Of a DNA stretch of 35,671 nucleotides, positions 1 to 30,922 are shown one piece after another (position 1 is the stretch's first letter; every line of letters starts with the position of its first letter). The stretch is taken from assembly GCA_025965715.1 (NCBI GenBank), contig JAOPWJ010000024.1:1-35671 (forward strand), in the 5' to 3' direction. This stretch comes from Blastococcus sp. GTDB lineage: Bacteria; Actinomycetota; Actinomycetes; Mycobacteriales; Geodermatophilaceae. The position numbers and the translations under genes are program-made. The notes under the pieces were generated by a model. It ran no database searches and was not told where the DNA came from. It saw only the letters and a program-made list of their open reading frames with translations.

Positions 1-1969
1 GGCGGGTGCGGCGGGGGCCGACCGCATCGGTTCCCGGCGCGGCGGCGTCGCTCAGCCGGGCGCAGGCGACGGCGAGCCCGGCCAGCAGCCAGTACACCGC
101 CAGCGGCACGTCCTGGCGGAGGGAGAAACCGAGCAGCTCCTCGAGCGCGAGGAACACCATCACGGCGACGATGCCGATCGAGGTGCCGCCGAGCAGCCGG
201 TCCGCCGACCGCGCGCCACGCACCGCCGCCCAGAACATCGCCCCACCCACCAGGAGGAGACCCAGCAGCCCGAGAACGCCGGTCTCCGACAGGTTGAGCA
301 GGTAGAGGTTGTGCACCGGGTTGCCGAAGAAGATGACGAAGTGCTCCTCGTACCGCGGCAGCACCACCTCGAAGTTGTTCAGCCCGACGCCCAGCAGCAG
401 GTGGTCGTCCCACATGTCGAGAGCGATCGTGTTCAGCTGCAGCCGGGAGTCGATCTCCTCCCAGAAGTGAGCGGTGAAGAAGTTCTCCGAGAACTTCGCC
501 GCCAGCTGTGGCAGGAACGCTGCCCCGACGGCCACCCCCAGCAGGGCGACCCGGCCCAGCGTCGACCACCGCAGCCGGCCGCGCGCCAGTCCGGTGGCAA
601 CGACGTAGACCGCCGCCACGGCCACGGCCAGGACCGACGCCCGGGCGTGTGACAGGTACAGGGGAGCCGCGCAGACGACGACCATGAGACCGGCGGCGAT
701 CTTGGCCAGCGACCGCTGGAGATGGACGGCGAGGCTGAGCGCCACCAGGCACAGGGAACCCAGGACGGCGCCCATGAACACCGGATGGATGATCGTGCCG
801 AACGGGCGGCCCAGTGACTCCGCGCCGGCGACCCGCTGGGTCAGCTCGGTCGGCACGCCGAGGAAGGCGAGCCCGAGGGTCCCCCCGGTCAGCGCCTGCC
901 CCAGGACGACGATCAGCTCGAAGGAGGCGAAGACCGCGAGACCACCGAGGACGGCCCAGACGTGGCGCCTGGTGCGGATACGGACGGCGGCGTAGAAGAA
1001 GAGCAGGTACATCCACCCCATCCGGACCAGCTCCCCGGCGCCGAGCCAGGGTTGCGTCGCTACGAGCAGGCTGGGCAGCAGGAGGAACGCCCCCACGAGG
1101 GGGAGCCGGAGGATCGGCCGCCGGAAGCCGGCACGGACGTCGGCCGCGAACGTCCCCTCGCCGATCCAGAAGGCGTAGAGCAGCACGAGCATCGCGTCGA
1201 AGCTGGTCACGTAGACCGAGATGGCGCCGCTGGAGAGCTCCAGATCCTGCGGACCGATCGACTTGTGCAGCATGAAGGCCAGCGAGGCGGCCGCCAGGAA
1301 CGTGAACGCCACCGACCGGTCCCGCACGACGCAGATCAGGACGACGACGACGGCGGCGGCCGCGCCCGCGACGAGGATCTTGACCCCTGACGAGGCGAGG
1401 ACCAGCGCGACCGGGCCGATGGCGACGCCCACGCCCACGGTGCCGGCGACCTGGGCCCGGCGTCCCAGGGCCCGGCGTCCCGGGGCCGGCTGCGCCGTCG
1501 GGGTCGCGCGGCCCGGCCGGGCGGGCAGGTCCTCCGGCGGACGGGTGAGGAGGTCATGGATCAACGGCCAACACAGCCAGCCGGCGACGGCCACGAGCAG
1601 GAGCCCCGCGAGCCCACCCAGCGCCATGGGCGCACGGTCGCCGAGGACGAGAGTCACGGCGGCGGCGCTTCCCGCGGCGGCGAGGGCGACGGCGATCGAG
1701 GCCCCGCGGGAGGACCGCCGCGACCCGGGAACCGCGCGCGGGCGGATCCGGTCGACGGCCGCGCGCAGCGGCGGTAGCACCTCGGCGCGGACCCCCCGAA
1801 GGAACAGTCCGGCCGCAGCGACGCCGCCCAGGCCGTAGAACACCGCGCTGCCCAGCGGGGTGAGAACGAGGGCCAACACGGCGGCGAGCAGCGCGGCGAC
1901 GGTCACCAGGGCGGCCTCCCGCCCCGGCGCCCACCCGCCGCGCGCATTCGTTCCCGGTGCTGCGGTCAC
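1..1969 (-). CDS. Wzy / O-antigen ligase-like polysaccharide polymerase (partial, runs off the left edge)
   Basis: Integral membrane protein, likely the polymerase that joins lipid-linked repeat units outside the membrane. The frame is open from a GTG at 1969 to the window edge, so at least 656 residues are present and the stop is missing. Many hydrophobic segments can be translated. Near the C-terminal end is the large extracytoplasmic loop typical of the Wzy_C/WaaL superfamily: HFWEEIDSRLQLN, then GVGLNNFEVVLPRY, then NPVHNLYLLNLSETG, with the conserved His before a short membrane segment. The start overlaps the upstream GT2 stop as GTGA (1966-1969), so translation is probably coupled. It is longer than many family members because of a roughly 200-residue membrane-rich N-terminal part. 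Ligase and polymerase cannot be told apart from sequence alone; the full Wzx/Wzz set around it favours polymerase. Confidence 0.85.
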   Translation of the reverse strand, partial: MTAAPGTNARGGWAPGREAALVTVAALLAAVLALVLTPLGSAVFYGLGGVAAAGLFLRGVRAEVLPPLRAAVDRIRPRAVPGSRRSSRGASIAVALAAAGSAAAVTLVLGDRAPMALGGLAGLLLVAVAGWLCWPLIHDLLTRPPEDLPARPGRATPTAQPAPGRRALGRRAQVAGTVGVGVAIGPVALVLASSGVKILVAGAAAAVVVVLICVVRDRSVAFTFLAAASLAFMLHKSIGPQDLELSSGAISVYVTSFDAMLVLLYAFWIGEGTFAADVRAGFRRPILRLPLVGAFLLLPSLLVATQPWLGAGELVRMGWMYLLFFYAAVRIRTRRHVWAVLGGLAVFASFELIVVLGQALTGGTLGLAFLGVPTELTQRVAGAESLGRPFGTIIHPVFMGAVLGSLCLVALSLAVHLQRSLAKIAAGLMVVVCAAPLYLSHARASVLAVAVAAVYVVATGLARGRLRWSTLGRVALLGVAVGAAFLPQLAAKFSENFFTAHFWEEIDSRLQLNTIALDMWDDHLLLGVGLNNFEVVLPRYEEHFVIFFGNPVHNLYLLNLSETGVLGLLGLLLVGGAMFWAAVRGARSADRLLGGTSIGIVAVMVFLALEELLGFSLRQDVPLAVYWLLAGLAVACARLSDAAAPGTDAVGPRRTR

Positions 1970-2964
1970 GTCGACATCCGGTCGGGCAGCACCGGCGTCG
2001 GCCGCGGGTCGCGCGGCGGCGCATTCCGATACCCCTGCTCGGTGTGGTGGAGCAGGACCTTCCAGTAGGACCACTCGGCCAGCCGGTTGCGCTGCCGCAG
2101 CCGGCCCAGCCGCCGCTGCAGGGGCGGCACGGTGACCCGGTTGAACAGCGCGTTGCGGACGGCCGTCCGAGTGCGGCCCCGCAGGGACGCGTGCCGCGAA
2201 CGGACCCCGTAGCGCTCCAGCAGGTCCGGCTCGGGGATGAGCTTCTCGAGGTCGCGCAGCCCCCGGCCGATGCTCTCCTGCAGCCGGCAGGCGCTGTCGA
2301 GCGAGTGCGGGTGGAAGTGCTCGCCCCAGGCGAGAGGCTCGTAGACGACGGCGTACCCGGCGCGCGTCCAGCGGTAGCCGAGCTCGATGTCCTCGTGGCC
2401 GATGGTGGCCCAGTCCTCGTGGAACACCAGGTTCCGGTCGAGCATGACCTGACGGGGCAGGCTCAGGTTCATCGACCACGAGTAGCGGTAGCCGACGTCC
2501 TCGCCGGTCCGCCCCGCGATCTCGCCGTAGGCGAACGGGCGGTACCAGGCGCCGAACGGCGTCCACGGCATCTTGTCCGACTGCTCCACATGGCCCAGCA
2601 CCGCGACCGGCTGCGCGTGCCGGGCATGCGCCTCCACGTGGCGGCGAACGCAGTCCGGCCGCACCCAGACGTCGTCGTTGAGGAAGAGCACCAGGTCCCC
2701 CCGGGCGGCACGCAGCGCCGCGTTCCGCTTGACCGCCGGCAGCCGCTCCTCGCCGGCCAGGCACCACATCGGGAACGGCGACCCTGCAGCGACCGCGCGG
2801 ACCATGTCCGGGGTTCCGTCGGTCGAGTTGTCGGCGACCACGACCTCGAGCAACTCCGGCGGGTAGTCCAGGCGCAGGTAGGAGCGCAGCGTCGTCTCGA
2901 CGACGCCTCGCCGGTTGTACGTCGGCAGGATCAGCGTCACCGAGGGCGCGTCCGGCAGCCTCAC
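1966..2964 (-). CDS. GT2 family glycosyltransferase
   Basis: Cytoplasmic GT-A fold sugar transferase, 332 residues, presumably adding one sugar to the undecaprenyl-linked repeat unit. The N-terminus reads VTLILPTYNRRGVVETT, the standard GT2 opening; VVVADNSTDGT is the nucleotide-binding strand; LFLNDDVWVRPD carries the metal-binding acidic motif; and GHEDIELGYRW is the acceptor-side ED motif with the likely catalytic base. The C-terminal 80 residues are basic and have no membrane segment. The GTG start at 2964 overlaps the flippase stop (GTGA, 2961-2964), and its own stop overlaps the polymerase start in the same way. Donor sugar cannot be read from the sequence. Confidence 0.9.
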   Translation of the reverse strand: MRLPDAPSVTLILPTYNRRGVVETTLRSYLRLDYPPELLEVVVADNSTDGTPDMVRAVAAGSPFPMWCLAGEERLPAVKRNAALRAARGDLVLFLNDDVWVRPDCVRRHVEAHARHAQPVAVLGHVEQSDKMPWTPFGAWYRPFAYGEIAGRTGEDVGYRYSWSMNLSLPRQVMLDRNLVFHEDWATIGHEDIELGYRWTRAGYAVVYEPLAWGEHFHPHSLDSACRLQESIGRGLRDLEKLIPEPDLLERYGVRSRHASLRGRTRTAVRNALFNRVTVPPLQRRLGRLRQRNRLAEWSYWKVLLHHTEQGYRNAPPRDPRPTPVLPDRMST

Positions 2965-4454
2965 GCCACCACCCCCAGCACCGATCGGTGGGCTCCCGTG
3001 ACGCGGGCCGCCGCTCCGTAGGTCAGCACTCCGGCGGCGGCCAGGAGGGGCCAGGCCATCCCGGCGAAGGACAGCGCCGCCAGCACGCCGGCGGTGAGGG
3101 CAGCCACCCCCGCGATCCGCACCAGCGGAGCCGCCTCGAGCCGGACGTCCATCAGCCTGCGCAGCGCGACCGTGGAGCCGGCCATGACGAACAGCGCGGT
3201 CCCGATGGCCGCCGTCCCGGCACCGACCATTCCGAAGACGGCCACCAGCGGGACGCTCAACCCTGCGGAGACGGCGAGGGCGGCCAGGCTGTACCAGAGC
3301 GTCACCCTCTGGTGTCCACCGAGCAGCAGGACCAGCGACTGCCACACGGTGACGACCAGCGGCACCATGGCGGTCGACAGCAGCACCAGCGGCAGGTCCG
3401 CCGATGCGTACGCCGGCCCGAACACCTGCACCACCAGCGGACGTGCGACGAACAGCAGGATCACCGGCAGGGCGAGGGTGATCAGGATCAGCGCCTCCGT
3501 TCCGCGCTGGTAGACCCGGACGAACCGGTCGAGATCCCCTCGCCCGTGCGCCGCCGACAGCAATGGGAAGGCCACGTTCATCAGCAGGGCGGTACTGAGG
3601 AAGGCGTAGTCGACCGGTTGCATGGCCGAGCCGTAGATGCCGACGTCCTCGGCCGGGCGCTGCGCGGCCAGCGACAGGCTGTCGAGCTTGCGGTAGAGGA
3701 CGCCGATCACCAGTGTCGGGGCGATCGGCAGCGCGGCGGCGAGGAGCAGCCGCGCCCTGCGGCCGTCGAAGTGCAGCCGCCGGTCGAACCGGTACCGGGC
3801 CAGTGCGACGACGACCGCGGCGCCCAGCGCCGTGCCCGCCGCCGGAGGCACGAACAGCCAGAGCAACGGCGCCTGGACGGCCACGAGCAGCAGGATCGCC
3901 GCGGTTTCCAGCAACTCCGTTCCCGTGCGCACCCAGGCCTCGTACTGCTGGGCGAGGCGGACCTGGAAGACCACCACCACCGCCCCGAGCACTGCTTCCC
4001 CGACACCGGTCAGCGAGGCGACGACGGCAGCGGGATACGCGTGCGCGGGCATCTGGAGGCCGAGCAGGACCAGTTGGGCCACGGCGATGCCGACGATCGC
4101 CAGCACGACCCGCAGCGCGACGATCGTTCCCAGTACCTGCGCCTCGACGGTGTCCCCGTCGTCGGGGGCGCGGCCGATCTCCCGGACCGCGAGCTTCGGC
4201 AGCCCGAAATCGGCGCCGAGCGCGACGAGCGTCGTCACCGTGAGGACGACGGCGTAGACGCCGTACTCGCCCGGCGCGAGGTACCGCACGATGGCCAGGG
4301 TCGAGACCACGTTCAGGACCAGATGCAGCGCCTTGGCACCCAGTTGCGATGCCGCACTGACCGCGACCCCGCGGGCGACGGACGGACCCGGTGCGGTCGG
4401 CACCGGAGGCGCGGGCCCCGTCCCGGGAAGGACGGCGACCCGGTCGTCGTTCAC
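2961..4454 (-). CDS. Polysaccharide flippase (Wzx-like, MOP superfamily)
   Basis: 497-residue membrane protein expected to flip undecaprenyl-diphosphate-linked repeat units across the membrane. After a proline-rich N-terminal tail of about 25 residues comes VSAASQLGAKALHLVLNV and then YLAPGEYGVYAV, the first-helix signature of the polysaccharide biosynthesis/Wzx family. About 12-14 hydrophobic helices follow, with short charged loops such as ALARYRFDRRLHFDGRR. Length is normal for the family. The GTG start at 4454 overlaps the Wzz-like stop (GTGA, 4451-4454), giving a better supported start than any internal codon. The position between a chain-length protein and a polymerase supports Wzx rather than a MurJ-type lipid II flippase. 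Confidence 0.88.
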   Translation of the reverse strand: MNDDRVAVLPGTGPAPPVPTAPGPSVARGVAVSAASQLGAKALHLVLNVVSTLAIVRYLAPGEYGVYAVVLTVTTLVALGADFGLPKLAVREIGRAPDDGDTVEAQVLGTIVALRVVLAIVGIAVAQLVLLGLQMPAHAYPAAVVASLTGVGEAVLGAVVVVFQVRLAQQYEAWVRTGTELLETAAILLLVAVQAPLLWLFVPPAAGTALGAAVVVALARYRFDRRLHFDGRRARLLLAAALPIAPTLVIGVLYRKLDSLSLAAQRPAEDVGIYGSAMQPVDYAFLSTALLMNVAFPLLSAAHGRGDLDRFVRVYQRGTEALILITLALPVILLFVARPLVVQVFGPAYASADLPLVLLSTAMVPLVVTVWQSLVLLLGGHQRVTLWYSLAALAVSAGLSVPLVAVFGMVGAGTAAIGTALFVMAGSTVALRRLMDVRLEAAPLVRIAGVAALTAGVLAALSFAGMAWPLLAAAGVLTYGAAARVTGAHRSVLGVVA

Positions 4455-5971
4455 GGTGCCGGTGCCTGCGGAACCGGAACCCCTCTGGGCGCCGGCACCG
4501 GCGGTAGCTCCCGCTCCTGACCGGGCGAGCCCACGTCCGCCGGCACGCTGCGTGCGTCCTCGTCGAACCCGAGCGTCCCCAGATCGCTGACGCGGTTGGG
4601 CTGGTCCTCGTCGTCGGGTCCATCGTCCTCGGGCCCCTCGTCGTCGGGTCCCTCGCCGGTGCCCGCTCCCCCGGCCGGCGCGAGGCGCCGCTCGGCCAGC
4701 CAGGTCAGCCCGCCGCCGGCGAGACCGCCGAGCAGGAGGCCCATCAGCAGGTACAGGTAGCGCTTGGGCGCGACGGGATAGGCCGGCCGCCCGGCCTCGT
4801 CGATACGGGTCAGGTCAGGCGCGGCCGTGGCGGCCTGCGTCTGCGCGTCGGCCAGGCTCGCGGTCAGCTCGTCGCGCTGATCCTCCACGGCACCGAGATC
4901 GGCCTGCAGGTTCGCGAGGTCCGCGAGGACGCCGCTCAGTGCGACCGGGGAGCCCGCAGCCACCTGACCCTCGAGGACGCTGATCCGCGCCTCGAGGCCG
5001 GTGATCCGGGCGAGCGTCTCGCTCCGCTGGGTCAGCAGGTCGCTGTAGACGGGGTTGGCCTCGTTGATCGTGATCGAGGTACCCGAGCGCCCGGTGTCGA
5101 TCTGCTGATCGGAGTTGACCGTGGCCGACGTGCGTTCCAGCGAGGCGGTGGTGGACTGCAGCTGCGCGTCGGCGTCGGCCAGATCGGCGCGAGCGGTGTT
5201 CAGGTCGGCGCGCAGGTCGTCGTAGGACGTGGCGGTGACGACCATCTGCTGGTCGGCCGCGGAGACGTTGTGCTGGGTCTCGAACGCGGTGACGGCGGCG
5301 GCCCTGGTCTCCACGTCGTCGCGCGCGGTGCCGAGCTGCGCCTCCAGTCGCACGATGTAGGCCTCGATACTGCGCTGCAGAAGGGCGGCGCTGCTCTCGA
5401 CCAGCTCGTCGGCGACGGCGTTCGTGATGGCCCGTGCCTGCTCGCCCGACTCCCCCGAGGAGGTGATCTCCAGGACGTAGGACCCGGGCTGACCAGCCGT
5501 CGCGCCCGCGGTCGTGCCCAGCTGCAGCGCGGTCGTGCCCTCCTGCACCGACGCGATGGCCGTCTCGCGCGGATCGAGGTCGGCACAGAAGCCCGCCGCG
5601 ATGAACGCGCGGCTGCACCGGTAGAGCCAGGCCGCGCCGGAGCTGAGCGTGTGGAACAGGCCGGAGCCCTCTGCCGGCGCGTCCAGGTCGAGGTCGTCGA
5701 CGACCGCCGTCGCGAGGCTGCGGCTGGTCGCCACGCTGCCGTAGGTGTCGGCCAGCGCCTTGGCCAGCGACGAGTCGGTGATGTTGGGCTGGTCGGTCTG
5801 CGTCTGGCCGGAACTCGACATGAAGCCCACGTCCCGGCCGTGGATGATCAGCCGGGTCGAGCTCTCATAGGTCGGCGTGACGAGGAAGGAACTGCTGAAG
5901 GCCAGCACTCCGCCCACGGCGGCCACGACCAGGACCCGCCAGTAGCGGTTCGCGGTCTGTGAGGCGGTCAT
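4451..5971 (-). CDS. Wzz-like chain-length / polysaccharide co-polymerase protein
   Basis: 506 residues with the two-helix Wzz layout. A transmembrane helix lies near residues 10-32 (RVLVVAAVGGVLAFSSSF) and is followed by VTPTYESSTRLIIHG. A long extracytoplasmic region is rich in Ala, Glu and Gln and predicted coiled coil. A second helix sits near the C-terminus behind a proline-containing motif (PAYPVAPKRYLYLLMGLLLGG in two parts). The tail is strongly acidic and proline-rich (repeated Asp-Asp-Glu-Gly), without a Walker A motif, so this is not fused to a BY-kinase. It probably sets chain length together with the polymerase. The ATG start overlaps the preceding stop (ATGA, 5968-5971). No tyrosine kinase or phosphatase partner is visible in the window. 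Confidence 0.85.
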   Translation of the reverse strand: MTASQTANRYWRVLVVAAVGGVLAFSSSFLVTPTYESSTRLIIHGRDVGFMSSSGQTQTDQPNITDSSLAKALADTYGSVATSRSLATAVVDDLDLDAPAEGSGLFHTLSSGAAWLYRCSRAFIAAGFCADLDPRETAIASVQEGTTALQLGTTAGATAGQPGSYVLEITSSGESGEQARAITNAVADELVESSAALLQRSIEAYIVRLEAQLGTARDDVETRAAAVTAFETQHNVSAADQQMVVTATSYDDLRADLNTARADLADADAQLQSTTASLERTSATVNSDQQIDTGRSGTSITINEANPVYSDLLTQRSETLARITGLEARISVLEGQVAAGSPVALSGVLADLANLQADLGAVEDQRDELTASLADAQTQAATAAPDLTRIDEAGRPAYPVAPKRYLYLLMGLLLGGLAGGGLTWLAERRLAPAGGAGTGEGPDDEGPEDDGPDDEDQPNRVSDLGTLGFDEDARSVPADVGSPGQERELPPVPAPRGVPVPQAPAP

Positions 5972-6930
5972 ACGGTCCTCCGGCTCTGGAGCGGCCGGAC
6001 CGTCGTGCCGGTCGGGAGGCCGTGGTGGACGGTGAGAACGACAGCGCGCACGGTCAGCAGCGCGGCGGCAGCCCAACGCAGCGGATTCCACGGCGAAGGC
6101 GCGTGGTGCTTTCTCCAGTAGCGGTAGGCGCCCTGGTGGAACCAGCGGATGGTGCGGGGCGACCACCCGTGGGCCCGGGAGCCGCCCTCGTCGTGGATCA
6201 CCTCGGCGGCGGGCACGCACCAGACCTCGTGTCCGGCGGCGGTGATCCTGCGGCACCAGTCGGCGTCCTCCCAGAAGAGGAAGAAGCCCTCGTCGAGCCC
6301 GCCGACCTCGGCGACGACCTGTCGCCGTACGAGCATCGCCGCGCCCGACACCCAGTCGACCTGGAAGGGCGTCGACGTCGTGCGCCGGCCGGCCGTGAGG
6401 TAGGCCCTGGACCAGCGGTTGCCCGGCCAGATGCGGGTCAGGGGTGACCGCCGGCCGAGGACGGCGCTGGCCGGAGTGGGGAAGGACCGCGCCGTCTGCT
6501 GGTCGGTCCCGTCCGCGTTCAGCAGCCGCGGCGCTACCACGCCGGCGCGGGGCTGCGCGTCGGCGAAGGCGACCATCCGGCACAGTGCGTCCTCGGCGGC
6601 GATCGTGTCGGGGTTCAACAGCAGCACGTACCGCCCGCGTCCCCGGGCCATGCCCATGTTGCAGGCGAAGGAGAAGCCGCTGTTCCACCCGTTCGCCACG
6701 ACGTCGACCCGGGGGAAGCGCCGGCGGACGGCCTGGGCGGTGCCGTCGCGCGAGTCGTTGTCCACCAGCACGGTCGAGATCCGCAGACCCCGGCCGGCCC
6801 ACTCCAGCGACTCGAGGGCGCGCAGCGCCGACTCCCGGCAGCGGTAGCTGACGATGACGACATCGACGTCCGGAACGGAAGGACGGTCGACTCGCTCCTG
6901 CTCGACCGCCGGCGCCGTTCCTGCCGCCAT
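5968..6930 (-). CDS. GT2 family glycosyltransferase (WbbL/rhamnosyltransferase-like)
   Basis: 320-residue cytoplasmic sugar transferase. Motifs in order: VDVVIVSYRCRESALRAL at about residues 22-39; TVLVDNDSRDGT; VVANGWNSGFSFACNMGM, typical of the WbbL-like branch; LLLNPDT, the metal-binding acidic motif; and FFLFWEDADWCRRI, the acceptor-side ED motif. The C-terminal region (GAYRYWRKHH, then a hydrophobic stretch) may touch the membrane. The ATG start at 6930 shares one base with the stop of the initiating transferase (TGATG). It would act second, extending the sugar placed by that enzyme. Similarity to rhamnosyltransferases is by motif only and does not prove the donor. Confidence 0.9.
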   Translation of the reverse strand: MAAGTAPAVEQERVDRPSVPDVDVVIVSYRCRESALRALESLEWAGRGLRISTVLVDNDSRDGTAQAVRRRFPRVDVVANGWNSGFSFACNMGMARGRGRYVLLLNPDTIAAEDALCRMVAFADAQPRAGVVAPRLLNADGTDQQTARSFPTPASAVLGRRSPLTRIWPGNRWSRAYLTAGRRTTSTPFQVDWVSGAAMLVRRQVVAEVGGLDEGFFLFWEDADWCRRITAAGHEVWCVPAAEVIHDEGGSRAHGWSPRTIRWFHQGAYRYWRKHHAPSPWNPLRWAAAALLTVRAVVLTVHHGLPTGTTVRPLQSRRTV

Positions 6931-8045
6931 CAGAACGCCCCCCGGCCGGAGAGCACGACCACGACGGTCCGCCAGAGGATCCGCAGGTCCAGCAGAACGG
7001 TCTGATGGGCCACGTAGCGCATGTCCAGCGTGAGGCGCTCACGAACGGTGAGAAGGCTCCGGCCGGCAACCTGCGCCACCCCGGTGAGCCCGGCCTTCGT
7101 GAACAGGCAGCACAATTCTTCCGGACGGTAGAGGCGCACGAATTCGGGCAGGTCCGGTCGCGGGCCGACGAGGGAGAGATCCCCTCTGATCACATTGAAC
7201 AAATTGGGCAGCTCGTCCAATGTCGTACGACGCAACCAGCGGCCGACGCGCGTATTGCGAGGGTCGTCGCTCAATTTGTAGTAGGCCGACTCGAATTCGT
7301 TTCGGTCGAGCCGGTAGTCGTACAGTTCGGGATACCGCTCGCGCGCGTCGACATACATTGTGCGGAACTTGTAGAAACGGAAGAGGCGACCCCCTCGGGT
7401 CACCCGCTCCTGACGGAAGATGGCCGGCCCGGGTGAGTCCAGACGAATGAGGACGGCCAGGGCCAGCATGACCGGGGCGAAGATCACCAGCAGTACCGAC
7501 GCGACGACGAAGTCGAGAATGCGCTTGGTCGCGGCGTACGCACGGGATCGATTCGGCAACAGCACGTAACGAGCGTCGGCCAGTTGCCGGTCCAGGAACG
7601 CCGGCAGGGGCTCGGCCTCCCCGCCGCCCGGACGGACGCCGACCCCGGCGACCCCGTCATCCGCCGACCCCCGGCGCTGAGCCGGGATGACCCCCACGGC
7701 GGCGGACGGGGTCCCGCCCCTGGCCGACATCGGCGATACCGCCCCGTACCCGTCGACGGCGGACGCGGCACCACTCCGGGTGACGTGCCGGGCGCCGACC
7801 GACGCCTGGGGCGGCACCCGCTCACCGGGTGCGTCGGGCAGCTCGATGAGCGTCCGAATCCGGCCCAGGCCTACCGAGCGCCGGGACATCGCCAGTTGAC
7901 TGAGCGGCACCGAGCGTTCGACGGAGAAGTCCACGATCGCGCCGTGAAATCCCCGCATCCAACCGTTGGAATCCCTTGGGAACGCATTCTTGCCGGGGAT
8001 GTCGACTCGGGTGACGAGGTCGGCCTGCGGATCGGACAACGACAC
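6930..8045 (-). CDS. Undecaprenyl-phosphate sugar-1-phosphate transferase (initiating enzyme)
   Basis: 371 residues. Starts polysaccharide assembly by moving a sugar-1-phosphate from a nucleotide sugar to undecaprenyl phosphate. The C-terminal 200 residues are a complete bacterial sugar transferase domain: ATKRILDFVVASVLL opens the single membrane helix, RFYKFRTMYVDA follows, then RTTLDELPNLFNV and GDLSLVGPRPDLPEF, all family signatures. The N-terminal 165 residues have no membrane segment and are low in complexity from about residue 75, unlike full-length five-helix WbaP/WcaJ enzymes, so it resembles the short ExoY/PglC type with an extra soluble head. GTG at 8045 is chosen because AAAGGG lies a few bases upstream. 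It is first in the operon, downstream of the DosR-like box. Confidence 0.9.
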   Translation of the reverse strand: MSLSDPQADLVTRVDIPGKNAFPRDSNGWMRGFHGAIVDFSVERSVPLSQLAMSRRSVGLGRIRTLIELPDAPGERVPPQASVGARHVTRSGAASAVDGYGAVSPMSARGGTPSAAVGVIPAQRRGSADDGVAGVGVRPGGGEAEPLPAFLDRQLADARYVLLPNRSRAYAATKRILDFVVASVLLVIFAPVMLALAVLIRLDSPGPAIFRQERVTRGGRLFRFYKFRTMYVDARERYPELYDYRLDRNEFESAYYKLSDDPRNTRVGRWLRRTTLDELPNLFNVIRGDLSLVGPRPDLPEFVRLYRPEELCCLFTKAGLTGVAQVAGRSLLTVRERLTLDMRYVAHQTVLLDLRILWRTVVVVLSGRGAF

Positions 8046-8288
8046 TCACCCTTTCCCCGGGCAGCGCTTCTCTTCACAGGACAGCGCACGAGGGCCACCG
8101 CGGCCCCTGGTCGAGGGCCAGCGCCATCGCCACGGGATTGCAGCGTTCTCCTGGTGCGGACCCCGCAGATTGGCTCACCTGTCGGATGCCGCGGAAGTCT
8201 GGACCGGACGTTGAACCGCCGCAAGACCCCTCGTGCACCATCCGGCGAAAAATGTTGCCGTTATATGTCCGCGATCCTCTGGATACAC

Positions 8289-8330
8289 CCATAATCCGGG
8301 ACGAAAGTCCCCTTGAGTGTCCGATTATGG
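8289..8330. repeat. 8-bp inverted repeat flanking the DosR-like box
   Basis: CCATAATC at 8289-8296 and GATTATGG at 8323-8330 are exact reverse complements, with 26 bases between them that contain the whole DosR-like core. The centres are 34 bases apart, slightly over three helical turns. The arms are unusually AT-rich for this genome, which argues against chance. They could be two half-sites of a second regulator or the base of a cruciform. Confidence 0.65.
8295..8314. promoter_or_regulatory. DosR/DevR-like binding box
   Basis: The minus strand reads GGGACTTTCGTCCC at 8311-8298. The published mycobacterial DosR consensus core is GGGACTWWAGTCCC, so 13 of 14 positions match; both outer S positions of the 20-bp consensus also match. 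The five-base arms GGGAC/GTCCC are a perfect inverted repeat. DosR is a NarL-family regulator induced by hypoxia and nitric oxide, and related regulators in other actinobacteria bind similar palindromes. Placement upstream of the exopolysaccharide -10 fits an activator site. Which regulator of this organism would bind is unknown. Confidence 0.6.
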
Positions 8331-8366
8331 ACCGTAATGCGTTTCCGGGACTCGCCCGGACGGCCC

Positions 8367-9263
8367 TCAGTGCGCAGGCACGATCCGTTCCACCACGTCA
8401 CGGGGCATGAGCCCGGCCTTGCCGAAGCGCCGAGCAGCCTCGATGAACTGCGGCGCACAGGTGGCCAGGTCGGCCAGCATCGCCCTGGCCGCGTCCTCCC
8501 GGCCGGCCAGGGCGGCGACCACGGCCCGCCACATCAGCTGGTCGGGCTCGGTGTGCGGATCCATCGGCCGGAGCAGTTCGAGCTCGCGGTCGGCGGTGAC
8601 CGGGTCGCCGTCGATCGCCTGCTGGAAGGCGCGGACGACGTCCTGGTAGCGGGCGCGCGTGACCAGCAGCTCGGTCAGCGCGGCAACCGGGTCAGGCGAG
8701 TCGTCGACCCGGAGGTCGACCGCCATGTCGTGCCAGGGACGGCCGGTCGTCGAAGGGCGGATCACCATGATGGCCGCGGATCGCCGGCCCCGGAAGTCGC
8801 CCCCGGCGTCCTCGGCAGCCTGCAGCGCGTTGAGCAGCCGTTGCGCGAGTGGGCCGGAGGAGTTCTCGAAGCGCTCGACCATGGTGACCCAGACAGCTGC
8901 CGAGGCCGCCATGTTGGCCAGCGCCACGCAGGAGTCACCGATCAGGTGCCCGGCGGCCTCCACGCACTGCTCACCGGTGTAGGCGGCGGGGCCACCGCTC
9001 ACCCCGAGGACGGCGACCTGCCGGCGCTCGGGTTGGGGATCCACGCTGCTCAGTGCCGTCAGCACCTCCTGAGCGGTGAACCCGCCCTGCAGCAGGTCCA
9101 GGCCGACGGAGCCGTACATGGGCTCGGCCATCGACTGGGTGGCGATGACCCCGTGGCCGGGGAGCGCGAAGGGCACGCTGTTGCCGACGGCGAACGCCTG
9201 GGACTGGGTGGCGACGCCCATCTCCCCGGTTTCGGCGTCTCGGGCGACGATCGAGTAGGTCAC
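8367..9263 (-). CDS. DUF1028 family protein (predicted Ntn-hydrolase fold)
   Basis: 298 residues. The N-terminus TYSIVARDAETGEMGVATQS followed by FAVGNSVPFA is the hallmark of DUF1028, a family with an N-terminal nucleophile hydrolase-like fold and no settled substrate. The central GVIATQSMAEPMYG and GDSCVALANM are also conserved in the family. The C-terminal 90 residues form a helical extension, possibly TPR-like (PDQLMWRAVVAALAGREDAARAML). GTG at 9263 is chosen because the family motif starts directly after it; the frame is open further upstream, but that part is arginine-rich and not protein-like. Role unknown; some family members sit near peptidases. Confidence 0.85.
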   Translation of the reverse strand: MTYSIVARDAETGEMGVATQSQAFAVGNSVPFALPGHGVIATQSMAEPMYGSVGLDLLQGGFTAQEVLTALSSVDPQPERRQVAVLGVSGGPAAYTGEQCVEAAGHLIGDSCVALANMAASAAVWVTMVERFENSSGPLAQRLLNALQAAEDAGGDFRGRRSAAIMVIRPSTTGRPWHDMAVDLRVDDSPDPVAALTELLVTRARYQDVVRAFQQAIDGDPVTADRELELLRPMDPHTEPDQLMWRAVVAALAGREDAARAMLADLATCAPQFIEAARRFGKAGLMPRDVVERIVPAH

Positions 9264-9422
9264 GGCGGGAGGCCTACCCGGGCATCCCCGGGAGCCCACA
9301 CGCGGCCGCGCCCGATCGCCGCCGCGCGGTCTGCCGCGGCACCGAGGTTCCTGGCCTCGTCCCATGGGCCGCGGGCGCTACGCGGGTGCCCACCGCAGAG
9401 GGGTGCCGGGGCCGGGGCCCGG

Positions 9423-19668: not shown

Positions 19669-20334
19669 TCAGACCAGGCCCAGTGCTCGCCCCCGGAGCG
19701 CCGCCTGAGTGCGGTCACGGGCGCCCAGCTTCGCCAGCACGTTGGTCACGTGGTTCTTCACCGTGCCCTCCGCCAGGAACAGCGCCCCGGCGATCTCGCG
19801 GTTGCTCTCGCCCTCGGCGAGCCGGCGCAGGATGTCGAGCTCACGGTCGGACAGCGGCACCACCAGCGGCTGGGCACGCCTCGGGGCGTCGTCGGGCAGC
19901 GCGGCGAAGCGCGCGATCACCTTGGCGGCGACCGACGGCTGCAGCACCGACTCCCCTCTGGCGGCAGCGAGCAGTGCCTCGACGAGCCGGTCGGACGGGA
20001 CGTCCTTGAGCAGGTAGCCGACGGCGCCGGCCCGCAGCGCCGCGAACACGTCCTCGTCGTCGTCGAAGGTGGTGAGCGCCAGCACCCGGACGGCAGGGTG
20101 CTCGACGCGCAACCGCTTGGTGGCGGCGATCCCGTCGAGCACGGGCATGTGCAGGTCCATGAGGACGACGTCGGGGCGCAGCACCGCCGTCCGCTCCAGC
20201 GCGGCCGCGCCATCGCCGGCCTCACCGACCACCTCGATCTCGGCGCGCACCTCGAGCAGCGTCGCCAGCGCCTCCCGGAACAGCGCCTGGTCATCGACCA
20301 GCAGCACCCGCACCGGCGTTCCACTGCCGCTCAT
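19669..20334 (-). CDS. NarL/LuxR-family response regulator
   Basis: 221 residues. Receiver domain at about 8-125: VRVLLVDDQALFRE with the acidic pocket, phosphorylated Asp60 in VVLMDLHMP, and LLKDVPSD with the conserved Lys. C-terminal LuxR-type HTH: LSDRELDILRRLAEGESNRE then GTVKNHVTNVLAKLGARDRTQA. The ATG at 20334 overlaps the kinase stop (ATGA), so it is the cognate partner of that kinase. Target genes are unknown; neighbouring genes downstream (small membrane protein) or upstream (GlgC-like, LURP-like) are candidates. Confidence 0.93.
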   Translation of the reverse strand: MSGSGTPVRVLLVDDQALFREALATLLEVRAEIEVVGEAGDGAAALERTAVLRPDVVLMDLHMPVLDGIAATKRLRVEHPAVRVLALTTFDDDEDVFAALRAGAVGYLLKDVPSDRLVEALLAAARGESVLQPSVAAKVIARFAALPDDAPRRAQPLVVPLSDRELDILRRLAEGESNREIAGALFLAEGTVKNHVTNVLAKLGARDRTQAALRGRALGLV

Positions 20335-21461
20335 CCGGGCACCACCACCCGCAGGGTCGTCCCGGAGCCGGGCGCCGAGGCGACCGTGAGGCTGCCACCG
20401 AGCCGCTCGGCACGCTCCCCCAGGCCGAGCAGGCCGAAGCCCACACCGGTGGCTCCCGCACCGGGGAGCCCCGCGCCCCCGCCGTCGTCGCAGACCTCGA
20501 GCGACACCGAGCCGTCGTCACGGTAGTGGAGCACCAGCCGAGCGCGCGCGGCCGCCGCGTGCTTGCGGACGTTGGTCAGGCCTTCCTGGGCGCTCCGGAA
20601 CAGCGCCTCCTCAGCGGCTGCGCTCAGGGCGCGGACGATGCCGGTGACCTCCAGGTCGGTGGGCACGCCGGCGGCGGAGGTCTCCTCGGCGAGCTGCTTC
20701 ATCGCGTCGTCCAGCGGTGGCGTGACCCGGGCCTCGCGGAACGCGGAAACCGACCGCCGGACCTCTGCCAGGGCGTCGGTGGACTGCTGCTGGGCCTTGG
20801 CCAGGACGGCGTCGGCCCTCGCGGGATCGCTGCGCAGCACGGCCCGCGCTGCCTGGACCTGCATCTGGACGACGGTGAGGTGGTGGCCCAGCCCGTCGTG
20901 GATGTCGCGGGCGAGCCGGTTGCGTTCCTGCGTGGTGGCGAGCTCCTCGGCCTGCGCGGCGAACGCCCGCAAGTGGACGTTGGCCTCCGCGAGCTCCGCG
21001 CGCGCCGCCTGCTCGCGGCGGAGCAGCTCGGTCACCACCGCGGTGAACGCCGCCGCGGCCAGGATGCCGAGTCCGCTGCGCAGCCCGTCGCCCCACGCCA
21101 TGCCGACGTGCACCAGTGGTACGGCCGCCGTGATCACGGCGGCGGCGGGCAACGGCAGGAGCAGCACGCTCTGGCTCACCAGCACCATGAGCAGCAGGGT
21201 GCCGCCGATGCCGAGTCCCGAAGCACCGAAGACGACGTAGGCCAGGGGAAGTTGCACCGCCAGGTACGCCACCGCCGCCACCCGGCGCCGAAGAATCGGC
21301 TCCTGCCGGTCGATCCACGGATAGGCGACAACCGCCACCAGGCTCAAGATCGAACCCAGGACGACGGCCGTCATCGGGTCCGCGAGGCCGGTGCTCTCGA
21401 CCAGCAGGGTGACGAACGCGCCGCACGTCAGCAGGACGAGGGCGCGGGTCACGGCACCCAC
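20331..21461 (-). CDS. Sensor histidine kinase (HisKA_3 family)
   Basis: 376 residues. The N-terminal 145 residues hold about five short membrane helices with little periplasmic sequence, suggesting sensing within the membrane. A coiled coil (RREQAARAELAEANVHLRAF) leads to the phosphoacceptor motif ERNRLARDIHDGLGHHLT with His188. The C-terminal ATPase domain contains RSAQEGLTNVRKHA (N box), VCDDGGGA and GFGLLGLGERAERLGG (G boxes). There is no GAF or haem domain, so it is not a DosS-type sensor. GTG at 21461 is the longest start; a second GTG at 21452 is possible. Coupled to the response regulator by a four-base overlap. Confidence 0.92.
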   Translation of the reverse strand: MGAVTRALVLLTCGAFVTLLVESTGLADPMTAVVLGSILSLVAVVAYPWIDRQEPILRRRVAAVAYLAVQLPLAYVVFGASGLGIGGTLLLMVLVSQSVLLLPLPAAAVITAAVPLVHVGMAWGDGLRSGLGILAAAAFTAVVTELLRREQAARAELAEANVHLRAFAAQAEELATTQERNRLARDIHDGLGHHLTVVQMQVQAARAVLRSDPARADAVLAKAQQQSTDALAEVRRSVSAFREARVTPPLDDAMKQLAEETSAAGVPTDLEVTGIVRALSAAAEEALFRSAQEGLTNVRKHAAAARARLVLHYRDDGSVSLEVCDDGGGAGLPGAGATGVGFGLLGLGERAERLGGSLTVASAPGSGTTLRVVVPG

Positions 21462-29325: not shown

Positions 29326-30474
29326 TCAGACGGTGAAGTTCGCGGTGTCCTGGGCCATCTGCCGCAGCGCACCGAACTCCGACGACGCCGTCAGGCCCCA
29401 CCGGCAGTCGGCGTTGGACGCGATCGTCGGCGGGCGGTTGAAGTAGAACGCCGCTGTGAAGACGTCCCGGTTGGCGACCAGGTAGCGCTGCGCGTTGTTG
29501 AGCCACTGCGTGCGACTGGCGTTGGAGTGGCTGGCGAACTCGGGGAACGAGGCCTTCTTGCCGTGTGCACGGGCGAAGGCGGCGACCGGGTCACCCAGGT
29601 ACTGCAGCTCGTTGTACTTACCGGTGCCCGTCGCGCCGCAGCTGATCCAGTTGTAGGCGTCGGCTCCGACGTTGTCGACCCACTCGTCACCGGGGTACCA
29701 CTTGGCTGCGGCCTGCTCGCTGGCGGGATTGACGCGGAACGAGTAGGCGGTCATCTGCCACGTCCAGATGACGTTCGTGGCGCCCTGCTGGTCGAAGATC
29801 GTCTCGACGTGCCGATAGGCCGCGATGAAGTCGGCGGCGCTGCCCAGAGTCAGGCGGTCGTGCGCTTCCGGCTCGTGGTTGTAGGCGACCATCGGGTTGC
29901 CGCCCCGGGCCTTGATCGTCTGCGCCCAGGTGACGATCTGGTTGTAGAGCGACGAGCCCGGCCCGGCGGCGGCGACGTCGCGCCACGTGGTGCCACCGGC
30001 GCTGACCGTGATCATGGCCGCCTTCGGGACGCCACCCGCGAACTTGGCGTAGGCGTGGTTGGCCAGCGGAACGCCCGTTCCGGCCAGCGCCTGCTGGTAG
30101 CCGCCGGCGACCGAGCCGATGTACATGCGCCCCCCCGTGGTGCTGCCGGCCGGGGCCACAGCCGGGGCGGCAGCAGGCGCAGTGGCAGGGCCTGGTGTGG
30201 CCTTGGACCTGCCGGGAGCGACCGATCCCGGGCCGGCGGGGGCTTGAGCGGAGCCAGCAGGGGTGCCGGCGGCGGCAGCCCCGGCGCCGGGGCCGGCCAC
30301 GGAGGCGATCGAACCGCCCTCGGTGGCCGTCACCTGACGGGTGACGGAGGAAGCGGCGGGCTGAGTGGCCACCGACGGGGCAACCGCGAGCGCGAGGGCG
30401 ACCGCAGCCGTTCCCGTGGCGGTCAGCATGAGGCCGTTCCAGACGGCGCGGGACACTCGTGAGGACGAGCGCAT
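29326..30474 (-). CDS. Secreted GH26-like glycoside hydrolase
   Basis: 382 residues. A signal peptide (LMLTATGTAAVALALAVA) is followed by a long Ala/Pro/Gly linker to about residue 112, then a (beta/alpha)8-type domain. Likely catalytic residues: acid/base Glu201 in MVAYNHEPEAHDR and nucleophile Glu312 in KKASFPEFASHS, in the order expected for GH26. IWTWQMTAYSFR and YPGDEWVDNVGADAYNW are typical GH26-like strands. GH26 enzymes cut mannans and related beta-glycans, so the substrate may be an extracellular or own-envelope polysaccharide. ATG at 30474 has AAGGAG ten bases upstream. Expression is likely controlled by the c-di-AMP riboswitch in its leader. Confidence 0.85.
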   Translation of the reverse strand: MRSSSRVSRAVWNGLMLTATGTAAVALALAVAPSVATQPAASSVTRQVTATEGGSIASVAGPGAGAAAAGTPAGSAQAPAGPGSVAPGRSKATPGPATAPAAAPAVAPAGSTTGGRMYIGSVAGGYQQALAGTGVPLANHAYAKFAGGVPKAAMITVSAGGTTWRDVAAAGPGSSLYNQIVTWAQTIKARGGNPMVAYNHEPEAHDRLTLGSAADFIAAYRHVETIFDQQGATNVIWTWQMTAYSFRVNPASEQAAAKWYPGDEWVDNVGADAYNWISCGATGTGKYNELQYLGDPVAAFARAHGKKASFPEFASHSNASRTQWLNNAQRYLVANRDVFTAAFYFNRPPTIASNADCRWGLTASSEFGALRQMAQDTANFTV

Positions 30475-30501
30475 GGCGGGACAACTCCTTCTTCCTGAGA
30501 A

Positions 30502-30630
30502 CCGCTGACCGGGTTAGCTGACGGGTTCGGGCGGGAAGGCGGCCCTACGGCACGTGGCCGATTCACCCCAGGGATCTGTGGGTCCCCGGCTCCGCGCGCA
30601 CCAGCCGGTGCGGCGACGGATTGAGCGGCG
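30502..30630 (-). ncRNA. c-di-AMP riboswitch (ydaO-yuaA)
   Basis: The minus strand leader of the GH26-like gene contains the conserved ydaO blocks in order: CGGAGCCGGGGACCCA (about 30594-30579), CTGGGGTGAATCGG (about 30571-30558), CCGTAGGGC (30550-30542), CCCGCCCGAACCCGTCAGC and TAACCCGGT (30534-30508). The outer P1 helix is CCGCT (30628-30624) with AGCGG (30506-30502). This RNA binds cyclic di-AMP and usually turns off cell-wall hydrolase or resuscitation-factor genes in actinobacteria. Its end lies 12 bases before the AAGGAG ribosome site, with no separate terminator hairpin evident, so control may be translational or through early termination. Confidence 0.93.
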
Positions 30631-30922
30631 GTCCGGCGAGTTCCCGATCTGTCGGGGCGACGCCTCGCTCGAACCGGAGAGAACGTAACCCGCAACTTTT
30701 GGTAACGGAAGGGTCACGGAGAAAAACTACACAAGTGTTCTTCGTTGGCCCTGCGCGGTTTTGCTATGACTCTGCGTCCAGACTCGCCGGCCGCTCCGGC
30801 GATCACCCCGGTCGAGCCCGGCGCCGAGCCGCAGGACGGAGCATCGCGGCCGCGGGGAAAAGGATCCGCTCGGTAGCGGAACGGTTCTAGCCTCGGCCCT
30901 CTCCGGCCGATCTGGAGCTGTC
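30631..30922. promoter_or_regulatory. Divergent promoter region between the riboswitch and the beta-propeller gene
   Basis: 292 bases, AT-richer near 30680-30775. On the minus strand GTGAC, six bases, GTTAC (30717-30702) is a near-palindrome upstream of the riboswitch and may be a Crp-like or other regulator site. On the plus strand TTCGTT (30741-30746) and TATGAC (30765-30770), 18 bases apart, resemble a weak promoter for the lipoprotein gene. These are guesses by eye. Confidence 0.35.

Follow-up and report, generated by a model that had tools for sequence, protein, structure and literature searches.

The stretch of DNA analysed here, referred to as the window (35,671 nucleotides), is one contig (C92) of a Blastococcus draft genome that comprises 3.55 Mb in 263 contigs (80% complete, 72% G+C), and base 1 of the window is the first base of that contig. 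The minus strand carries a polysaccharide operon of the Wzx/Wzy type, and a gap of 321 bp, which contains the site under study, separates the start of the operon's sugar-transferase gene (8045) from the end of a DUF1028 gene (8367), both genes being on the minus strand. The features considered below are as follows:

2 to 1969, minus strand: Wzy-like (Wzy_C) gene, found by a scan of the open reading frame 2-2767; its start is approximate and it runs off the contig
1966 to 2964, minus strand: second glycosyltransferase of family 2 (Pfam)
2961 to 4454, minus strand: Wzx-like flippase (Polysacc_synt, Pfam)
4451 to 5968, minus strand: Wzz/GNVR-like chain-length protein, both matches lying below the Pfam cut-off
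5968 to 6930, minus strand: glycosyltransferase of family 2 (Pfam)
6930 to 8045, minus strand: bacterial sugar transferase (PF02397, 371 aa, 8.4e-60), first gene of the operon and presumed target
8260 to 8265, minus strand: TATAAC, a possible -10 element without a recognisable -35 (a guess)
8289 to 8296, plus strand: left arm CCATAATC of an inverted repeat
8298 to 8311, minus strand: DosR-type box GGGACTTTCGTCCC, a complete match to the motif GGGACYTTSGKCCC
8323 to 8330, plus strand: right arm GATTATGG of the inverted repeat
8367 to 9365, minus strand: DUF1028 gene (Pfam)

The start region of the sugar transferase is backed by an alignment with two orthologues. The initial annotation had placed the box upstream of the Wzx/Wzy operon, and in our own gene calls the nearest gene start within range is indeed that of the operon's first gene. 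Compared with 60 relatives, the gap DNA matches solely the coding end of the DUF1028 gene and short pieces at about 8093-8132, and 18 of the 61 genomes (its own included) have any match to it; a plasmid collection searched with the same DNA gave no match, nor did an Rfam search of 8000-8450 at E <=5. Elsewhere in the window, a c-di-AMP riboswitch (ydaO/yuaA, 74.4 bits) is found at 30486-30637 on the minus strand, 11 nt upstream of an open reading frame of 382 aa (29326-30474, minus strand) with a partial Glyco_hydro_26 match.

DosR is a low-oxygen dormancy switch of actinobacteria. The box reads GGGACGAAAGTCCC on the plus strand at 8298-8311, that is, GGGACTTTCGTCCC on the minus strand (8311-8298), and the minus-strand match reported earlier was confirmed: 13 of 14 positions agree with the DosR core consensus GGGACTWWAGTCCC, as taken from the initial annotation. 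It is the sole match to that consensus in the window allowing up to three mismatches; shuffled sequences searched in the same way gave a mean of 2.16 matches, an unimpressive control, and the significance of the box is therefore based on work with the motif of the relatives rather than on that search.

This motif, GGGACYTTSGKCCC, occurs at 65 sites, the window site among them, against 17 for its reverse in 41 genomes (summed by hand), and at 3 sites against none reversed within the genome of the window. Thirty-four of the 65 were examined in context, with gene calls based on G+C by codon position and no trained gene finder: 21 are intergenic and 13 lie inside predicted genes, several of which are probably false calls. 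A scoring matrix was trained on 19 of the 21 intergenic sites, the window site and that of locus L104 being excluded. By this matrix the window box scores 19.8 bits (training range 17.2-29.7) and the runner-up place in the window 10.4, while its following base is G, against T in 14 of the 19 training sites. The box agrees with GGGACYTTSGKCCC at 14 of 14 positions; the degenerate motif was written with the window and the relatives both already in view and the training sites were chosen by it, so that this full match is partly by construction and the matrix score gives the fairer measure. In first-order Markov copies of the window amounting to 4.28 Mb the score of the box was never reached, and 20,000 simulated 321-bp gaps gave four matches at that score. 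No place of at least 15 bits occurs in the 179,561 bp of other loci from relatives. Judged by its letters, the window site is well supported as a DosR-type site.

Around dosR of relatives we found GGGACTTTCGGCCC, GGGACCTTCGGCCC, and variants; of 28 dosR loci, 11 have a place of at least 15 bits within about 1.5 kb, not always upstream, and 17 have none. Elsewhere in the order, mostly in other families, sites precede usp-, CBS-, nitroreductase-, pyridoxamine-oxidase-, and cytochrome bd-like genes (identified by eye). Retention of the box was seen at a small gene (L007:1639-1848) encoding 69 aa with a conserved CREELRGSP, with orthologues in L200, L202, L204, L206, L209, and other loci, located by a search for the coding motif. 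A DosR-type box lies 71-128 bp ahead of it in the genome of the window and in 9 of 15 other genomes of the genus (distances derived from printed offsets, alignment of 13 chosen loci; a tenth same-genus case was recognized by eye), and upstream of the gene the box is kept while much of the remaining gap has diverged. The protein has no Pfam match in the two family members scanned, and its gene is likely, from this pattern of sequence retention, to be an addition to the DosR regulon.

The genome encodes two DosR paralogues, P0001 (contig C253, L072) and L236:434-1108 (contig C117), for both of which the closest solved structure is DevR (3c3w, 5.4e-85 and 4.3e-73, respectively), the next-best structures reaching 7.8e-43 and 3.5e-32. 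The recognition helix AEKTVKNYVS of the C253 paralogue is identical to that of DevR in the alignment; the helices of the two paralogues differ slightly (KTVKNYVS in C253, KTVKNYTS in C117). The regulator pattern is present in 24 of 37 genomes examined. Facing the second paralogue on C117 is a DosS/DosT-like kinase (L236:1114-2952) with two GAF domains, HisKA_3, and HATPase, whose first GAF domain matches best the structure 2vzw (7e-46), which we take to be DosT, followed by DevS entries (7e-43 and weaker), and retains the HPPM histidine, presumably the haem ligand. The initial annotation had named the lack of a DosR-like regulator as grounds for giving up its idea; with two paralogues and a kinase found in the genome, that objection falls away. 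Two further signalling loci were noted: another kinase with GAF domains and HisKA_3 (L235:1105-2817), and, in the window itself (19669-21461, minus strand), a NarL-type two-component pair of a HisKA_3 kinase and a GerE response regulator.

The surroundings of these regulator genes resemble the M. tuberculosis DosR regulon. P-type ATPase genes belong to the mycobacterial regulon, and both a P-type ATPase gene and usp genes lie beside dosR here: on contig C253, together with dosR, we find usp, an SPFH protein, a P-type ATPase, a glycogen-debranching-like enzyme, a glycosyltransferase, and a second usp gene. Ahead of the usp gene adjoining dosR stands GGGACCTTCCTCCC, and the usp gene directly upstream of the C117 kinase carries GGGTCCTTGGTCCC some 190 bp ahead of its domain; only 2 of the 9 usp loci of the genome have a box at up to one mismatch. 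Usp genes are members of the mycobacterial DosR regulon according to PMC5069765.

If TATAAC is taken as the -10, as had been proposed, transcription would start at about 8253 and the 20-bp form of the box (8295-8314) would fall at -42 to -61; this arithmetic holds, and the promoter geometry built upon it is unsupported. The centre of the box would be at about -51.5 relative to the guessed promoter, with no overlap of the -35; a sigma-70 promoter scan of 7900-8800 found none, and no second box with fewer than three mismatches occurs in the gap other than the box read with an offset. In PMC3029386, the DevR promoters of M. tuberculosis that were analysed have at least two boxes with the nearest over the -35, unlike the window, where a single box is found, the -35 is not overlapped, and a polysaccharide operon is the presumed target. 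As for the predicted OsdR sites of Streptomyces coelicolor (PMC5069765), many are listed singly, they lie between -36 and -391 from start codons (two inside genes excepted), hence up to hundreds of bases away, and the window box, at -253 from the sugar-transferase start, is within that span. The predicted sites CGGGACCTTCGGCCCT and AGGGACCTTCGGCCCC listed there contain the motif of the relatives, and one predicted unit, SCO0039-SCO0042, includes a glycosyl transferase; the two systems differ in that the Streptomyces consensus is AGGGCCGATCGGCCCT and that Table 1 of PMC5069765 names no Wzx/Wzy operon.

Conservation of the box before orthologues of the operon's first gene, a check proposed in the initial annotation, was not seen: the box is absent upstream of both orthologues found outside the genome. 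At E 1e-52 the sugar-transferase gene is without a match in the 15 other genomes of the genus, several of them incomplete, and in a sample of 397 genomes of the larger order (E 1e-65) one besides its own passes, G147, in which other genes of that strand precede the gene and no box at up to one mismatch occurs across 20 kb. In another collection, Micromonospora sp. NBS 11-29 (L116) carries an orthologue in a largely collinear operon; no other among the best 80 of 126 loci covers nearly the whole protein. The Micromonospora gap has no GGGACYTTSGKCCC at up to two mismatches and no similarity to the window gap beyond chance, 446 of 1000 shuffles equalling the local-alignment score; GACACTC and TATGG, equally spaced in the two gaps, were dropped as a candidate on the same account. 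Among 29 more distant sugar-transferase loci (L035-L063) there is one GGGACNNNNGTCCC, placed after the match and not before it (L046). Because only two orthologues, both distant, are at hand, this comparison gives no support and yet no refutation. Within the genus the operon seems to occur sporadically, which suggests that the site was probably acquired together with the operon or later.

Extended contexts of boxes were analysed at L251 and L255. At L251:12949 (G016), GACCGGGACTTTGGTCCCGGTC forms a perfect hairpin that contains a DosR-like core and lies ahead of a gene of 73 aa and a sugar-nucleotide-epimerase-like gene (by eye), in a region with polysaccharide-like genes. As a second case of a box at a polysaccharide operon it was rejected, since the site is a perfect 9-bp hairpin and maybe a terminator.

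The AT-rich inverted repeat had been described as framing the box exactly, and as a possible second regulator's paired site that would make a compound operator. The framing is not exact: the arms stand 1 nt to the left and 11 nt to the right of the box, and the centres are 8309.5 for the repeat and 8304.5 for the box. The repeat was first picked by eye and simulated afterwards. Of 3000 simulated gaps, 510 contained a perfect 8-bp repeat (10-40 spacer) and 28 one with at least five A/T per arm; with the box kept in place, 73 of 20,000 simulated flanks surrounded it with an 8-bp repeat. Searched as CCATAATC-N10-40-GATTATGG, it recurs in one of 396 other genomes of the order, there without a box. 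Being neither concentric with the box nor accompanied by it elsewhere, the repeat is unsupported as an operator or as part of a compound operator. The one recurrence (G090, L230:1501-1528) is a 28-bp palindrome, CCATAATCG...CGATTATGG, with arms as in the window repeat, directly ahead of a proline-dehydrogenase-like gene (by eye).

On balance we favour, by a modest degree, the reading that the box is bound by a DosR/DevR-type regulator that activates the polysaccharide operon under low oxygen or nitric oxide. The main rival comes from the box and the repeat themselves, which can fold as a two-tier hairpin (GGGAC-TTTC-GTCCC, a 5-bp stem with a 4-nt loop, nested in an 8-bp outer stem), so that the palindrome might instead be part of a terminator or of the 3' end of the DUF1028 transcript. 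The DUF1028 stop codon lies 55 nt ahead of the box on the same minus strand, a short GC stem close behind a stop codon is what GC-rich intrinsic terminators have, the DNA fold of the palindrome gives z of -2.35 and -2.37, and the site in G016 sets a similar core within a perfect 9-bp stem. As a 50-nt RNA, the plus strand folds with z -2.80 (0 of 200 shuffles as good), but the fold of the minus strand, which is that of the DUF1028 transcript, stands out less (z -1.34, 24 of 200). Unlike such terminators, moreover, the site has no T run on the DUF1028 strand, its outer stem is AT-rich (5 of 8 per arm, 1 and 11 nt from the inner stem), and its core fits the motif of a protein site; a terminator scan of 7900-8800 placed no T-run site at the box, its sole listing being on the plus strand at 8243-8260. 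In 7 of the 19 training sites GGCCC breaks the fourth stem pair, which the window copy and the other 12 keep, and the family motif is thus not a hairpin motif. We regard a terminator as unlikely, though as the foremost of the rivals.

A functionless chance match in a GC-rich genome has in its favour that the loose motif equals its reversed control: GGGACTTTNGTCCC at up to two mismatches has 23 sites against 23 in the box's own genome, that is, no excess. GGGACNNNNGTCCC has 13 against 6 there, but 11 of the 13 are inside predicted genes. The T-variant GGGACTTTSGKCCC occurs at 15 sites against 5 reversed in 112 genomes of the family, by which about one-third of such sites may be chance, and its contexts are mixed, with a clear polysaccharide operon at the window only, besides the doubtful case in G016. 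The simulations of gaps and windows given above speak against chance, as do the intergenic position of the box with an operon downstream and a genome that holds the regulators and a matching kinase; we consider a chance origin rather improbable. Less credible again, and in our view very unlikely, is that CCATAATC/GATTATGG serves a different regulator as its operator, with the DosR-like core being incidental: the arms are perfect, and among the 90 perfect 8-bp repeats (10-40 spacer) in the window this one alone has at least five A/T per arm, but its single boxless recurrence beside a proline-dehydrogenase-like gene lends no weight to such a role at this locus.

Under DosR control of the operon, which is plausible, the GAF-domain kinase encoded on C117 would sense low oxygen or nitric oxide and phosphorylate one DosR paralogue or the two of them; in its phosphorylated form the regulator would occupy the box and switch on a promoter within the 321-bp gap, and more transcription of the minus-strand operon starting at 8045 would result. 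The likeness to M. tuberculosis extends to the GGGAC-N4-GTCCC core of its DosR/DevR boxes, the identical recognition helix, and the DosS/DosT-like kinase. The operon may then add a new target to a regulon of a known kind, rather than represent a new kind of system. A fuller and more tentative version, which we hold to be possible but short of probable, is that a Wzx/Wzy operon sporadic in the genus was recruited to the DosR dormancy regulon by acquiring a single strong box, a polysaccharide coat then being the response to low oxygen or nitric oxide, and that a second regulator could compete at the overlapping AT-rich repeat. A link between DosR/DevR and exopolysaccharide or biofilm matrix is not stated in the titles and abstract openings of the literature surveyed, including work on Mycobacterium abscessus biofilms (PMC8586431).

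If DosR control of the operon is true, oxygen and nitric oxide sensing of the DosRS type would be tied to matrix production in an actinobacterium. The existence of a recognisable DosR-type motif in this family of genomes, kept before the small gene, is more solid and is useful by itself.
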